From a virus, in the IMG/VR virus record IMGVR_UViG_3300023112_000063, positions 1 to 32,114 of that record: 32,114 bases of DNA; one strand, 5' to 3'. The notes under the pieces were generated by a model that made no database searches, had not been told where the DNA came from, and saw only the letters and a list, made by a program, of their open reading frames with translations. Shown here one piece after another: positions 1,604-8,682 of this stretch. Both the position numbers and the translations under genes were made by a program. The first letter of the stretch is position 1. The number at the start of each line of letters is the position of its first letter.

Positions 1604-1610
1604 TATTAAT

Positions 1611-1663
1611 GCTAACGGTTAGTATATGAGCCGTTTTTTCTATGGCTTATATACATTGTTAGC
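1611..1663 (+). repeat. Gene-end hairpin, family 1, copy 3 (attC-like)
   Basis: Outer arms GCTAAC (1611-1616) and GTTAGC (1658-1663) are exact complements. The inner stem GTATATGAGCC (1622-1632) pairs with GGCTTATATAC (1644-1654), eleven pairs with one wobble, around an 11-nt loop. Unequal unpaired spacers (5 and 3 nt) separate outer and inner stems. This layout of short conserved outer arms, spacer and variable inner stem is how attC sites are built. It sits between two methyltransferase genes. Confidence 0.8.
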
Positions 1664-1697
1664 CACAGTACTATTAACAAACTAAAATAAATAGATT

Positions 1698-2819: not shown

Positions 2820-3314
2820 TCACTTAATAAAATCCTTCATCTTACTACCTGCGCTACTTCCTCTGTGAAATTGCACTATAGCTGAAAACTGACCAGTAAC
2901 TGCTGCGTATATACCCAATACTCCAGTAAAATCAACATTTACATTATCAACTAATTTGAAATACTTAGCAACTATAAAAATAGTCATTGCTCCCCAAATA
3001 ATGCCTATGAATAAATCTAAAATAAAAGGAACGTTCTTTGCCATCCAACTGGAAAATTGAGATTTTTGTATCTCAGTATTATTAGACCTAGCATTACTTA
3101 AATCTTCACGGTCTAATTGAAGTAATGAAATCGCTTCTTGTTTATTCTGATCACTAATCTCTGTAGAGGTAGTAATCATATCACTTATAGTATTTAGTGC
3201 CTTAAATCCCGTAGCATTACCTACAGCAGTCAGTATTGGGTCGCCAATGTCTCCAAGGTCTTTTAGGAATGTCCCTATTCTTGTTTTACCGTTATCGTCT
3301 TTAAATTTTCCCAT
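2820..3314 (-). CDS. Holin-like membrane protein, 164 aa
   Basis: Last gene of the - strand lysis block. The N-terminal ~75 residues are soluble and mixed in charge. Two hydrophobic stretches follow: about 93-113 (VPFILDLFIGIIWGAMTIFIV) and about 127-147 (VDFTGVLGIYAAVTGQFSAIV). The C-terminus, FHRGSSAGSKMKDFIK, is basic. That plan, and the RGSSxGSK ending, fits phage holin-like or 3TM-holin-related proteins that make membrane lesions for endolysin release. Placement next to the endolysin supports a lysis role. Family assignment is inferred from the membrane layout and context, so it could also be another lysis-related membrane protein. Confidence 0.65.
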   Translation of the reverse strand: MGKFKDDNGKTRIGTFLKDLGDIGDPILTAVGNATGFKALNTISDMITTSTEISDQNKQEAISLLQLDREDLSNARSNNTEIQKSQFSSWMAKNVPFILDLFIGIIWGAMTIFIVAKYFKLVDNVNVDFTGVLGIYAAVTGQFSAIVQFHRGSSAGSKMKDFIK

Positions 3315-3318
3315 AATT

Positions 3319-3741
3319 TTATTTGATTAATTGATATTGCTCTCCAAATACCCTGCTTAATATATCTCCCCCAGAGTATGGTTTCTCTAAGAAATCAGTA
3401 ACCCCTGTTTTCTTCTTGAAATCAGATATCATCGAACTTGTTATGTATGCTGATAGAACTGTGCTTTTTATGTTTGGGAATAAATATTTTATCTCTTTTA
3501 GTATTTCATCACCATTATGATTAGGCATTCTGTAATCGCAAAAAATGTGATCTATTTTATTACTATTTACTACGTTTATAGCCTCATTTTTGTTAGACGC
3601 TATAAATATGTTGGCGTCTCTTCTGAACTGTCCTTTAAAGGCTGATAGGTTTTCTTTCTGGTCATCTATCATTAATATATTTAAACGATAAGATAATACA
3701 TCCTTAAATATTTTTATATATTCCCTATTTTCTTTGTTCAT
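3319..3741 (-). CDS. Stand-alone response-regulator receiver (REC) domain protein, 140 aa
   Basis: A single CheY-like receiver domain with no output domain. NILMIDDQKEN supplies the acidic pair D26-D27. HIFCDYRMPNHNG contains the phospho-acceptor D69. VLSAY gives the switch Ser at 97, and DFLEKPY gives the conserved Lys-Pro (K120-P121). All residues needed for phosphorylation and Mg2+ binding are present, so it looks functional. It lies between the holin-like gene and the small TM gene of the lysis block, overlapping the latter by 17 bases. No histidine kinase is visible in the window. It could take phosphate from host kinases, or serve as a lysis-timing input. That role is inference; the domain is clear. 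Confidence 0.9.
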   Translation of the reverse strand: MNKENREYIKIFKDVLSYRLNILMIDDQKENLSAFKGQFRRDANIFIASNKNEAINVVNSNKIDHIFCDYRMPNHNGDEILKEIKYLFPNIKSTVLSAYITSSMISDFKKKTGVTDFLEKPYSGGDILSRVFGEQYQLIK

Positions 3742-3976
3742 TTATTATGATGTCTTTTAATGAAGTCATAATCTCCTTAATTTCCCTATCAAGAATATTC
3801 CTTTCCCTAGTCAATTCATTACTTTCCGCTATAACTGTAATCGCTCCCTTAAGTGTATTTGAGAAATCTTTTTGATCCTCTCTATTTATACTTACCTGTT
3901 TAAGTAGTTGATGCCATAGTATCCCAATTCCCCCCAGAAGTGCAGCAAAAATTGTCTCTATTTTGTAATCTTCCAT
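3725..3976 (-). CDS. Small membrane protein of the lysis block, 83 aa
   Basis: The ATG at 3976 (MEDYKIETIFAALLGG) is preferred because AATT-ATG is the usual context here. A longer frame would overlap the endolysin gene. Residues about 6-24 form one hydrophobic helix. The remainder is a charged, coiled-coil-like helix rich in Glu, Arg and Lys. One TM segment followed by a coiled coil, next to an endolysin, suggests a second holin, antiholin or spanin-like protein. No lipobox is seen. It overlaps the receiver-domain gene, consistent with translational coupling. Confidence 0.65.
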   Translation of the reverse strand: MEDYKIETIFAALLGGIGILWHQLLKQVSINREDQKDFSNTLKGAITVIAESNELTRERNILDREIKEIMTSLKDIIINEQRK

Positions 3977-4001: not shown

Positions 4002-4397
4002 TTAATTAATTTGAAAGTGAGCGCCATCTTTTCCCCATAATTCTTGTCCCCATTGCAATTCCACACAATACAAGTCCATTGCCACTTTCTGTAAATGCTT
4101 TGCTATAGGCTCTAAATACTTTAAATCCCAGCTTGCCTTACCATCTACATAAGCGAATAAATCAAAAGCTTTTCCAGTTTTATGGTAACTGTTTAAAGTC
4201 CACGTTACAGGACTTCTATGTAACTCAGTAGTTCTACCTATAGCATACATTTTTATTTGATCTTCTTCTGTTCTTAAGCCCCCAAATTTTGGGATGCCAA
4301 AGTCGTAAGGACTTGTCTTTATGCCGTCTAATAATATATCAATTAGAACGGGTTCAATACCCTCCAATCTGTTAAGGCTTATTTTACTTAAGTTCAT
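4002..4397 (-). CDS. Endolysin, M15 family L-alanyl-D-glutamate / D-Ala-D-Ala peptidase-like, 131 aa
   Basis: Predicted peptidoglycan peptidase for lysis at the end of infection. It shows the M15 signatures GGLRTEEDQ (39-47), SYHKTGKAFDL (70-80) with zinc ligands H72 and D79, and WGKDGAHFQ (121-129) with the third ligand H127. The length (131 aa) is close to the single-domain T5 endolysin (137 aa). There is no signal peptide or cell-wall-binding domain, as expected for a phage of Gram-negative hosts. It follows the tail spike gene by two bases and precedes the membrane lysis genes. Confidence 0.9.
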   Translation of the reverse strand: MNLSKISLNRLEGIEPVLIDILLDGIKTSPYDFGIPKFGGLRTEEDQIKMYAIGRTTELHRSPVTWTLNSYHKTGKAFDLFAYVDGKASWDLKYLEPIAKHLQKVAMDLYCVELQWGQELWGKDGAHFQIN

Positions 4398-4399
4398 AA

Positions 4400-6502
4400 T
4401 TAATAAAATCCACTATTATCTCTGGCTAAATCTAATAATATAACCTCTGAAGCAGGTAGTGTTGTGTTATTAGCCACTGTAGACAGTCCGCTTGTTTGAT
4501 CAGAGAATGCCCCGTCAGAAACATTATACTCTATAAATGCATTATATCTTGGCTCAAGTCCTGTCGCTCTACCTAACCTAACAGCTGTTGAAAATCCTAT
4601 TATAGTATTATGCCTAACAATCACCCCGTTTAATTCAGTGTTTTTAGTTACATCTGTAGGATATGCAAAGATTGCATATGTAGCATTAGAGTTTCCAATG
4701 AGAGTGTTATTCTCTACAACCATACCGGGTGTCACTTCTAGTGAAATGTTAGAATCAGAATCCTTTCTCTGTGTAATAATGTTGTTTTTAATATTGACTC
4801 CAATATAAGATGACCGCCCTTTTGTTCCGGCTCCTACATTCGTGTTTTGTCTGAATCCGTTACTATATCCAGACACTGTGTTGCCTGATATGTTAAAGTT
4901 ACGTCCTCCGTAGAAATAATCAGTATTAGTTGAACCGTCTGATTTCAAGTATGTCGTTGCCGCTAAGTCTAACATCATCCAGTTAGTCAGGTCTATGCTT
5001 TGAGACACAGCTTGATTCACAAAAGTGTTATCTTTTAACGATACACCCACACATAAGTTAAACGCAATATGATTAGCATAATCAAGATTACTTATGGGAA
5101 TAGATGTAGCCAAAGGGACATAACCATCTTCGTTTATGAAGTTATTATCGCTCACTAATAAGTTAGAACAGCTTTCGAATAAACATCTACCATTTAAGAA
5201 TGTATTACCTTTTATTATTATATCATCAAATCCGCCACCTTTAGGTAACGTAAAGAGAGTTAATGTAGTAAAGTGTATATAATCGTAGTTTTCAAAGTAG
5301 TTGTCTGTTATTTTATACCCTTTCAATATACCTGATTCTGCAACAAGACCTTTACATACTCCTGATATATTAGTTGCCATATTGTTACTAACAGTTGCAA
5401 CTGAATCATTCTCAGTAGGACCATTGCTCATGATACCAAAAAAGGATCCTCCGCATGTCTCAACTGAGTTATTAGTTATGAATACATTCTTTGATCTCGC
5501 TGAATATGTAAAAGCTGCTTCATTGTGACCTGAGATACTAAGAGGTGTCTTACATACATCAACTAAGTTATTATTATCTATTTTGTTAAACCCTTCGTTA
5601 CCTGGCTCAGACTCCTTACTTATGTGTGTAAATGAACCATTCAGATTACTAGCACTATTCCCGTGAATAAGGCAGTGATCATCTAAGAATAAGTTCTCGT
5701 TAGGGATGTCTTTAAAGTGGCAGTTGTATACAACAGTGTTGCTCCCTAAGTTATCTATACTGCTGTTGTGGTTCCACCCTAAGTACTCAGTATTGTTTGA
5801 CTTATTACCATCAATATTTAATCCCGAAATGTTAATCTGCTTATTAAATGCACCTATGAATGTAAGGAGAGGGTAAACCTTTAATACCTTTGTTCCTGTT
5901 GGATAGCTTGTTGATAAATTACCATTTGTAGGCAGATTGAATGCTCCATCAACCGTTATTGTATTACCTGATATCCCTGTAATCATTTGTCTTATAGCCG
6001 ATTCCTCTTGATAAGCTGTTCCAAGGTTAGGACTTGTTACATCCAATAAGATAATATCTTCTCCTATGTTAAAGAGAGAGGCATTTGCTACATTAAAAGT
6101 AGTGTCAGATGTCCCAACGACAGTCGTGGTTGTTGTCACTTTAGCCTCTTGTCGCTTAAATGTTGCTCCTTTACCAATAAATGTTTGACGACTTAATCCT
6201 ACTAACCTGCTTGTTAATAAGTAAGTAGCTGTTGATTTAAAATCTATAACTCCTCCTTCGCCAGCTGCCGTAATTGCACTTTGTACTGCAACTGTATCAT
6301 CTGTAACACCATCGCCTATAGCTCCGTACTGTTCTGGGGTTATAGCCTCAGAAGCTACTTCACGAAACTCTAAAGCATCCTCTGCGTTATTAACAAATAC
6401 CGTCTTACCTGCTTGATCTGTATAAGTACTAGGTGTATCACTTAACTCTATAAAACTTTTAACTGCCATAACCTTACATCCCAAATCTACCGTTACTGCC
6501 AT
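4400..6502 (-). CDS. Tail spike with right-handed beta-helix (pectate-lyase-like), 700 aa
   Basis: Residues 13-50 (MAVKSFIELSDTPSTYTDQAG...) resemble the virion-attachment N-termini of Bacteroidota phage tail proteins. ITPEQYGAIGDGVTDDTVAV (54-73) is the classic start of a pectate_lyase_3 beta-helix. The long middle has many short repeats rich in Asn, Ile and Gly (NNxxxxN patterns), as in beta-helix coils. Such spikes bind, and often cleave, surface polysaccharide. The catalytic residues cannot be named from sequence alone. The ATG at 6502 overlaps the upstream stop (TAATG). The in-frame ATG at 6469 is an alternative start and fits the conserved N-terminus better. Confidence 0.85.
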   Translation of the reverse strand: MAVTVDLGCKVMAVKSFIELSDTPSTYTDQAGKTVFVNNAEDALEFREVASEAITPEQYGAIGDGVTDDTVAVQSAITAAGEGGVIDFKSTATYLLTSRLVGLSRQTFIGKGATFKRQEAKVTTTTTVVGTSDTTFNVANASLFNIGEDIILLDVTSPNLGTAYQEESAIRQMITGISGNTITVDGAFNLPTNGNLSTSYPTGTKVLKVYPLLTFIGAFNKQINISGLNIDGNKSNNTEYLGWNHNSSIDNLGSNTVVYNCHFKDIPNENLFLDDHCLIHGNSASNLNGSFTHISKESEPGNEGFNKIDNNNLVDVCKTPLSISGHNEAAFTYSARSKNVFITNNSVETCGGSFFGIMSNGPTENDSVATVSNNMATNISGVCKGLVAESGILKGYKITDNYFENYDYIHFTTLTLFTLPKGGGFDDIIIKGNTFLNGRCLFESCSNLLVSDNNFINEDGYVPLATSIPISNLDYANHIAFNLCVGVSLKDNTFVNQAVSQSIDLTNWMMLDLAATTYLKSDGSTNTDYFYGGRNFNISGNTVSGYSNGFRQNTNVGAGTKGRSSYIGVNIKNNIITQRKDSDSNISLEVTPGMVVENNTLIGNSNATYAIFAYPTDVTKNTELNGVIVRHNTIIGFSTAVRLGRATGLEPRYNAFIEYNVSDGAFSDQTSGLSTVANNTTLPASEVILLDLARDNSGFY

Positions 6503-6861: not shown

Positions 6862-7403
6862 TACCTATAGTATTTATCTTTGTTGTACTTATCATATCTA
6901 TCGTATTTATTCCTGCTATTAGATATTGCAGTTATATTAAACCCTGCCTTTTGTGTCTTGCAACAATCTTTAAATAAGGGATATATATCTGTATTACATT
7001 CTAAGAAATCAGATAAAGCATTTTGATAGTAAGCCCTCTTCTCTTTATTCTCGGAAATCATATCCTTTAACTCCTCTCTACTAATTTGCTCTGTATTAGT
7101 GCCTACTAATTTTACTATCCCAGTGTCTGTAGATCTTTTACCTGCCGTGCTAAGATAGTTGACATAACTAGCGAACACCAAAAAAGGCTTTACATAATCA
7201 TCAAATAGTAATTTATTATCTACAGTTAATGAATCTGCTAGAAATTCGCTATAAACCTCTTCATATAAATTAGAACACATAGTACCCTTAAGGACTCTTA
7301 CTTGAGCGTCCAATATATGTGGGTTAAGCTGCTCTTGCTCTATCTGTTTAGACAAGTCTACCCAATAAACAAAATCGTCTTTACTTATTAATAACTGCCT
7401 CAT
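6861..7403 (-). CDS. Head-tail connector-like protein (DUF6712-like), 180 aa
   Basis: A mostly helical 180-residue protein with a Tyr-, Lys- and Arg-rich tail (residues 165-180). It follows the portal gene with a 23-base overlap. Proteins of this size and make-up beside Bacteroidota phage portals are usually annotated DUF6712 or head-tail adaptor. Position rather than a motif supports the call. The adaptor role, joining the portal ring to the tail, is inferred. Confidence 0.55.
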   Translation of the reverse strand: MRQLLISKDDFVYWVDLSKQIEQEQLNPHILDAQVRVLKGTMCSNLYEEVYSEFLADSLTVDNKLLFDDYVKPFLVFASYVNYLSTAGKRSTDTGIVKLVGTNTEQISREELKDMISENKEKRAYYQNALSDFLECNTDIYPLFKDCCKTQKAGFNITAISNSRNKYDRYDKYNKDKYYR

Positions 7404-8682
7404 CTTTATCTTCTATTACTTCTTCAATAATTTCCTCTTTACCAAATTCTAACAAATCAAATTTAAAAGGATCTATCTTAACAGGATCAACTACATCAGC
7501 CCATATACTATTAGCAAATATCATATCGTAGGCTCTCTCTAATTTATTTTGACGCTTCTTTATTTTACCGTGCTGTAATGCAACAGCATTTAATATCTCT
7601 TGCGAAGCACCTAATTTACCACTAACCTGCACATTAGCCAATAAAGGAACTGTATTACAGGCTATAATAATATTATCTACAGCTAAGTTTTGTAAGGTAA
7701 TAAACAAGGCATCATTTGCGTTTGTTGGGAACGCTTCAATTTCAGGGAACTCTCCTTTAGTGTCAGACCAAGTAACAAGAGTCACACCCCCTTTACTGCT
7801 GCCAGACATCTTATCCTCCATTACTTCATTAAAGGCTTCACCTACTGTCTTTGTGGTATACTCTTCACCATCCTTATTTAAAGCTGTACTAAATGCCTCA
7901 TTAGGATCTCCCACCATTTTTATTAGACCACCTAAAAAGAAGTTATTATCTAAATTTGAATTATGGAACTCACCGACCTTTCTCTCTACATCAAACCATC
8001 TAAATCCACTCCAGTAAAAAGGTATTGGATAGAATTTATTTTGAGGTCTATTCTCTTTAACAAATAAAACCTGCCCTTTATACGACTTAACCTCCTCACT
8101 ACCTTCTTCTAACTCATCATTAAAATCGTTAATCTCTTTAATCTCAAATAGGGCTGAATTAGGATTATATACAGGGAAAATAGTGGTTTCACTCTCCTTA
8201 TAATCACCAGTTCCAAAGTAAGGATTGTAATAAATATGGTGAACTTTACTAGTTTCGGGGTTTGGTATTGATAACCTACAGGAATCGTAGGGTAATTTGC
8301 TTATATAATTTATTTCACCTAGAGGATTATACCTAACGTTTATATAAAAACCTTCAAAATAACCTTCATCTTGGCTAACTCCATTGTGTACATCTGTAAA
8401 AGTATCTTTATCGTTTACCTTTAATGTATTAAGAGACTCTTGGTTAAATCCGTCCCCCTCTATAAATGAAATTATTGTTTCTAGACAACTAGAAGCAGTG
8501 TGAGACCCATCAACAGTATCAAGAACGAAGTTAGGAAAACTATCTTTAGCCCCAAACTCAATATATCCTAACGAATCATTAATAGAAACCCTAGTGTTAA
8601 CCCCATCAGAAGGATCATAGTTGTATAATTTACTTTCTTCAACCTTTTCTGATTTCTGAAAAACCTGCATTCCTTTAATCAT
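7381..8682 (-). CDS. Portal protein, Bacteroidota phage type, 433 aa
   Basis: Forms the dodecameric DNA channel at one capsid vertex. I use the ATG at 8682 (MIKGMQVFQKSEKV). A longer upstream frame would cross the divergent dyad at 8704-8739 and has no supporting context. Landmarks are the WSGFRWFDVERKVGEFHNSN segment and the later NTVPLLANVQVSGKLGASQE. The latter resembles the P-x-L...G..GGS/GAS-x-E region before the long C-terminal helices of portal proteins. The acidic C-terminal tail is EEIIEEVIEDKDEA. Unusually, it lies far downstream of the terminase and after the capsid genes. Confidence 0.8.
   Translation of the reverse strand: MIKGMQVFQKSEKVEESKLYNYDPSDGVNTRVSINDSLGYIEFGAKDSFPNFVLDTVDGSHTASSCLETIISFIEGDGFNQESLNTLKVNDKDTFTDVHNGVSQDEGYFEGFYINVRYNPLGEINYISKLPYDSCRLSIPNPETSKVHHIYYNPYFGTGDYKESETTIFPVYNPNSALFEIKEINDFNDELEEGSEEVKSYKGQVLFVKENRPQNKFYPIPFYWSGFRWFDVERKVGEFHNSNLDNNFFLGGLIKMVGDPNEAFSTALNKDGEEYTTKTVGEAFNEVMEDKMSGSSKGGVTLVTWSDTKGEFPEIEAFPTNANDALFITLQNLAVDNIIIACNTVPLLANVQVSGKLGASQEILNAVALQHGKIKKRQNKLERAYDMIFANSIWADVVDPVKIDPFKFDLLEFGKEEIIEEVIEDKDEAVINK

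Follow-up and report, generated by a model that had tools for sequence, protein, structure and literature searches.

A stand-alone CheY-like receiver in the lysis block of a metagenomic phage and its possible link to lysis timing

Why should a phage carry a two-component receiver domain, stripped of any output domain, among the genes that end the infection? Holin clocks are usually attributed to holin build-up and membrane energisation, and a receiver would represent a different kind of input. The locus that raises the question lies in a virus record from IMG/VR, 32,114 bases long, which is called the window throughout. A Bacteroidota host is likely for this phage, because the full-length nearest relatives of its terminase are terminases of Bacteroides phages and because it encodes a DUF6712 protein. 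Three other records recur below, namely L002 and L005, which carry related receivers, and L007, which carries a different signalling domain.

The receiver and its neighbours

On the minus strand of the window, the gene order is tail spike, M15 endolysin, a small membrane/coiled-coil protein, receiver and holin-like protein. The features are as follows.

4400..6502, minus strand: tail-spike-like protein (PHROG tail spike matches), the upstream flank of the lysis block
4002..4397, minus strand: M15-type endolysin, 131 aa (phrog_465 lysis/endolysin, E=3e-31), just upstream of the small gene and the receiver
3725..3976, minus strand: small protein, 83 aa, with an N-terminal borderline transmembrane segment and then a coiled-coil-like helix (homologues and hydropathy); presumed partner of the receiver
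3725..3741, minus strand: 17-nt overlap of the 3' end of the membrane/coiled-coil gene with the receiver start (junction sequences)
3319..3741, minus strand: single-domain receiver (CheY-like response regulator), 140 aa, without output domain (PF00072, AlphaFold2 model, orthologues in L002 and L005)
3661..3666, minus strand: codons of the acidic pair D26-D27, Mg2+ site (translation; invariant in 3/3 phage receivers)
3535..3537, minus strand: codon of D69, predicted phospho-acceptor (translation; invariant in 3/3)
3451..3453, minus strand: codon of S97, the switch Ser/Thr, which is Thr in L002 and L005 (translation and alignment)
3382..3384, minus strand: codon of K120, the conserved Lys, followed by Pro-Tyr (invariant in 3/3)
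2820..3314, minus strand: holin-like membrane protein, 164 aa (L007 homologue, hydrophobic stretch)

The receiver frame opens with ATG, and its only Pfam match is Response_reg (PF00072), which spans the entire profile over residues 22-131 with 61.4 bits (cut-off 30.2; E = 1.1e-16) and takes up nearly the whole protein, with no output domain. The active site is conventional, and the acidic pair, phospho-Asp, Ser/Thr and Lys are all present in the window, L002 and L005. The original prediction of an intact CheY-like receiver (D26-D27, D69, S97, K120) lacking an output domain is thus confirmed by translation and Pfam, and the structure prediction that it proposed agrees: AlphaFold2, given a three-row alignment, returned a five-stranded CheY fold (model pLDDT 78, core mostly >80), and the nearest solved structures are themselves receivers (PorX, Z 17.9; CheY4, Z 17.6, 1.6 A over 115 residues). 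Identity as a NosR-type response regulator (NF053512) was rejected, as that model matched with 55.4 bits against a cut-off of 400, through its receiver part only and without the c-di-GMP phosphodiesterase part. The GC and GC3 of the gene (0.30/0.29, against a window GC of 0.34) are phage-like and therefore unlike those of a freshly inserted host fragment. Host contamination or misassembly was rejected in view of the phage genes to either side of the receiver, the independent synteny seen in L002 and this phage-like composition.

The placement had been described as lying between a holin-like and a small transmembrane gene and overlapping the latter. The overlap was found as predicted, while the transmembrane span is borderline, with a maximum hydropathy of 1.40 against a cut of 1.5 in the window and 1.54 in the L002 homologue. 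The membrane/coiled-coil gene is 61% identical between the window and L002, has a distant counterpart in L005 and overlaps the receiver gene in all three phages (by 17 nt in the window, 4 nt in L002 and 8 nt in L005); translational coupling is expected at the 17-nt junction. The endolysin is 73-74% identical to that of L002, and its match to Pfam Peptidase_M15_4 is below cut-off. On the other side, the holin-like gene starts 4 nt beyond the end of the receiver gene. Its product has a strong hydrophobic stretch at residues 94-122 and is 38% identical over 128 aa to an L007 protein that matches phrog_3427 holin (E=9e-14), and through this homologue it may be called holin-like. Used as bait, it retrieved no IMG/VR match and one weak match in INPHARED.

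Elsewhere in the window, a TAACG...GTTAGC element of roughly 50 nt, with palindromes inside it, occurs in three intergenic copies (281-330, 898-950 and 1606-1665, plus strand), which separate small plus-strand ORFs and the gene of a D12-class adenine methyltransferase (1698-2393). Two copies fold well above shuffled sequences. These elements recall attC sites of gene cassettes, with a core that does not fit GTTRRRY, and they might be terminators or another mobile repeat.

Distribution, position and origin of the receiver

A pattern search of IMG/VR with the single receiver sequence retrieved no close relatives. L002 (contig IMGVR_UViG_3300008470_000436, also numbered L010) was reached via the endolysin neighbour and L005 then via a two-row receiver alignment, and with the window these make up the three known members, all metagenomic. 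The L002 receiver is 42% identical to that of the window, and it sits in the order endolysin, membrane/coiled-coil protein, receiver, GTA-type holin (PF11351, 29.9 bits; phrog_3427 holin, E=1e-15). The downstream holin-like genes of L002 and the window have no detected similarity, and the receiver has therefore stayed while its downstream neighbour differs. The L002 holin itself is split over two overlapping frames (L002:7069-7472, as 7069-7350 and 7251-7472), through either a sequencing error or a real frameshift. L005 belongs to a much more distant phage, with a receiver 33% identical to that of the window, and has the order 92-aa membrane/coiled-coil protein, receiver, 2-TM-like protein. 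An M15 endolysin was not found in the scanned part of L005, its small membrane genes gave no convincing lysis-family match, and these genes are the sole basis on which the region is assigned to a lysis block. The proposed search in lysis blocks of related phages thus found the gene at the equivalent place in both L002 and L005, where it adjoins and overlaps the membrane/coiled-coil gene and keeps its active site, rather than at random positions or with active-site residues lost.

The receiver is missing from L007, a phage with a portal 73% identical to that of the window. The gene directly after its endolysin encodes a stand-alone PAS protein of 131 aa (43 bits to PAS_9; cut-off 27), for which INPHARED gave no match. 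The stop of this gene overlaps the start of the next, whose 69-aa product is coiled-coil-like at the N-terminus and carries a hydrophobic segment at the C-terminus. Beyond it follow an exonuclease-like gene and then the homologue of the window's holin-like protein. The endolysin neighbour of the slot is found in the window, L002 and L007. From this one case, we infer that one signalling domain was swapped for another in a single functional slot. The arrangement in L002 is shared with the window by descent. More independent evidence comes from L005 and L007. The first was retrieved by receiver similarity and the second by its portal, and gene position played no part in choosing either.

Two further observations concern these records. 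The exonuclease-like protein of L007 (L007:5745-6671, RNase_H_2 family) is encoded within the lysis block, where its gene stands between those of the membrane/coiled-coil protein and the holin. A separate 6.4-kb record, L006 (IMGVR_UViG_3300024062_000776), is 100% identical to the window portal over 350 residues, and the same phage may therefore have been recovered more than once.

Both domains are rare in such phages. Whole-record searches covered 90 viral records (50 + 40) related through endolysin, portal or receiver, among which PF00072 occurred only in L002, in L005 and in a 227-aa frame that lies at one end of a 41.8-kb contig and probably belongs to a receiver of the ordinary DNA-binding kind from the edge of a prophage. 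The search for PAS_9 covered the first 50 records and found it only in L007. Each occurrence of the receiver clade or of the PAS protein adjoins a membrane/coiled-coil gene. Neither domain is present in most of the phages that have a related endolysin, and lysis can therefore do without it. The portal as bait retrieved five close records, as well as six distant ones lacking a receiver. INPHARED phages contain receivers that are only about 30% identical and ordinary-looking, and those of the five records examined were rejected as family members since they fall outside the phage clade. No HATPase_c histidine kinase was found in the window record or the three relatives L002, L005 and L007 (G000, G002, G003 and G004).

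The search extended to 395 genomes from the class to which a Flammeovirga genome belongs (Bacteroidota), with the ten best candidates per genome scored. The best matches reached at most 97 bits, against at least 228 for the phage receivers, and were host-type receivers, which excludes them as prophage copies. These host proteins, whose receiver part is related to NosR NF053512, are the closest cellular relatives by profile and carry an FKAxFRR...DQRMP signature in 154-aa single-domain or longer forms. They share the FKxxFRR motif and the receiver active site with the phage proteins, but mostly have DQRMP and a C-terminal helix or second region, whereas the phage receivers have FCDYxMP, are tail-less and form their own clade. 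In trees with host and other receivers, the three phage proteins are one clade at 99-100% bootstrap, with support of 99/91, or 100/98 without long outgroups. Its sister relationship to the Bacteroidota host family is tentative, given the long branches of the phage sequences and a choice of host proteins that was guided by their similarity to the phage profile. A single ancient capture from a Bacteroidota host, with later evolution specific to the phages, is the simplest interpretation. The phage receiver may derive from the uncharacterised host family with 154-aa and ~365-aa forms. In L108, L111, L116 and other Bacteroidota host genomes, the 154-aa single-domain receiver often lies about 5 kb from its ~365-aa relative, and several of these host genes appear to stand beside a ThiF/HesA-like gene.

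Among the three phage receivers, 32 of the 140 positions are invariant and all active-site positions are kept. At that rate, four strictly invariant active-site residues would arise by chance in about 0.3% of cases. Between the window and L002, the receiver also ranks below every neighbour compared, with 42% identity against 61-73%. Such faster change is as expected of a protein tracking changing partners, and a decoy or arms-race gene would show the same.

Possible roles in lysis

The non-random receiver positions, the kept active sites and the PAS domain in the L007 slot speak for a signalling role connected with the lysis block. To this extent the interpretation put forward in the original prediction is partly supported. 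The protein might read a host phosphorelay to time lysis, titrate a host kinase or do something else at lysis time; phosphorylation, the partner and the effect on lysis are what we infer. Our tentative preference is for a phage-adapted single-domain response regulator of the late lysis block, which would use host phosphodonors and act on the membrane/coiled-coil protein or the holin to shift lysis time. In this mechanism, the receiver would take phosphate from host histidine kinases or from small phosphodonors such as acetyl phosphate and, phosphorylated or not, would bind either the holin next to it or the membrane/coiled-coil protein with which it is co-translated. Binding would advance or delay hole formation, and lysis time would be made dependent on the host signalling or energy state. 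In L007, the PAS domain would fill the corresponding role, paired with a membrane/coiled-coil protein whose gene overlaps its own. Both the receiver-bearing phages and the PAS-bearing L007 may accordingly read the host signalling state to time bursting. A broader form is somewhat unlikely, namely that Bacteroidota phages use an exchangeable cytoplasmic cartridge (receiver or PAS) with a co-translated membrane/coiled-coil protein by the holin, through which host phosphorelay, redox or ligand signals gate the holin post-translationally.

Two other explanations take the lysis block as incidental, and we regard each as unlikely. The receiver could be a decoy that, late in infection, drains phosphoryl groups or keeps a host kinase occupied and so silences a stress or envelope response of the host, with the lysis operon providing only late, high expression. 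A stand-alone receiver without output domain or phage kinase, of the same lineage as a common Bacteroidota host family and diverging faster than its neighbours, would suit this purpose, but a decoy leaves the fixed place overlapping a membrane/coiled-coil gene in distant phages unaccounted for, as it does the PAS domain in the L007 slot, since PAS alone is no phosphate sink. Alternatively, the region from the tail spike to the replication genes could be a hot spot for small genes, with the receiver and PAS genes as host-derived morons unrelated to lysis. The block is indeed variable, with the extra exonuclease-like gene in L007 and various small genes or none in relatives, and the receiver distribution is patchy. 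Accessory cargo of this kind sits less easily with a single receiver clade in place of repeated host captures, with gene overlaps and an upstream neighbour of one type, and with a slot that holds two types of signalling domain. It is very improbable that the receiver fold is kept as a constitutive, phosphorylation-independent binder or chaperone of the membrane protein, for although receivers are able to work without phosphorylation and position 97 alternates between Ser and Thr, all five active-site positions are kept where only 32 of 140 positions are invariant.

If the lysis-timing regulator is the true reading, a receiver or PAS domain in the lysis block would connect host signal transduction directly with the timing of lysis, and the receiver, membrane/coiled-coil protein, holin and endolysin would form a compact, testable set for how a phage times its burst.

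Comparison with known systems

Phage receivers as such are already known, and what is new here is a known domain in a new, conserved setting; we found no description of a receiver or stand-alone PAS domain in a lysis block in the open-access literature. Stand-alone receivers are annotated in Alteromonas phage vB_AmeM_PT11-V22 (149 aa) and among uncultured Caudovirales proteins (BFVD), and they share the short phage-encoded CheY fold, yet are 14-18% identical to the window receiver. In lysis inhibition by T4 RI and its antiholin action, a periplasmic domain senses superinfection. Environmental information thereby gates the holin, as is proposed here, but the signal is superinfection and not phosphorylation. 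VqmA, which contains a PAS domain, is a transcription factor controlling lytic entry; it is not a receiver and does not act post-translationally. Through VqmA, vibriophage VP882 uses a captured host signal-receptor lineage to launch its lytic programme at the transcriptional level (PMC8284805). The cREC receivers of jumbo phages are reported to be divergent, to be tied to NAD+/ADP-ribose enzymes and never to have been found in two-component systems (PMC7824862); they resemble the window gene as a phage-encoded receiver fold of unrelated role, while the window gene instead has a conventional active site and lies in a lysis block. EpsW of Myxococcus xanthus is a single-domain response regulator proposed to act post-translationally on the membrane enzyme EpsZ by direct contact (PMC12802240). 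Although the EpsW-EpsZ pair is cellular, serves exopolysaccharide synthesis and has no phage or lysis role, it offers a precedent for the action on a membrane protein that is proposed for the phage receiver.
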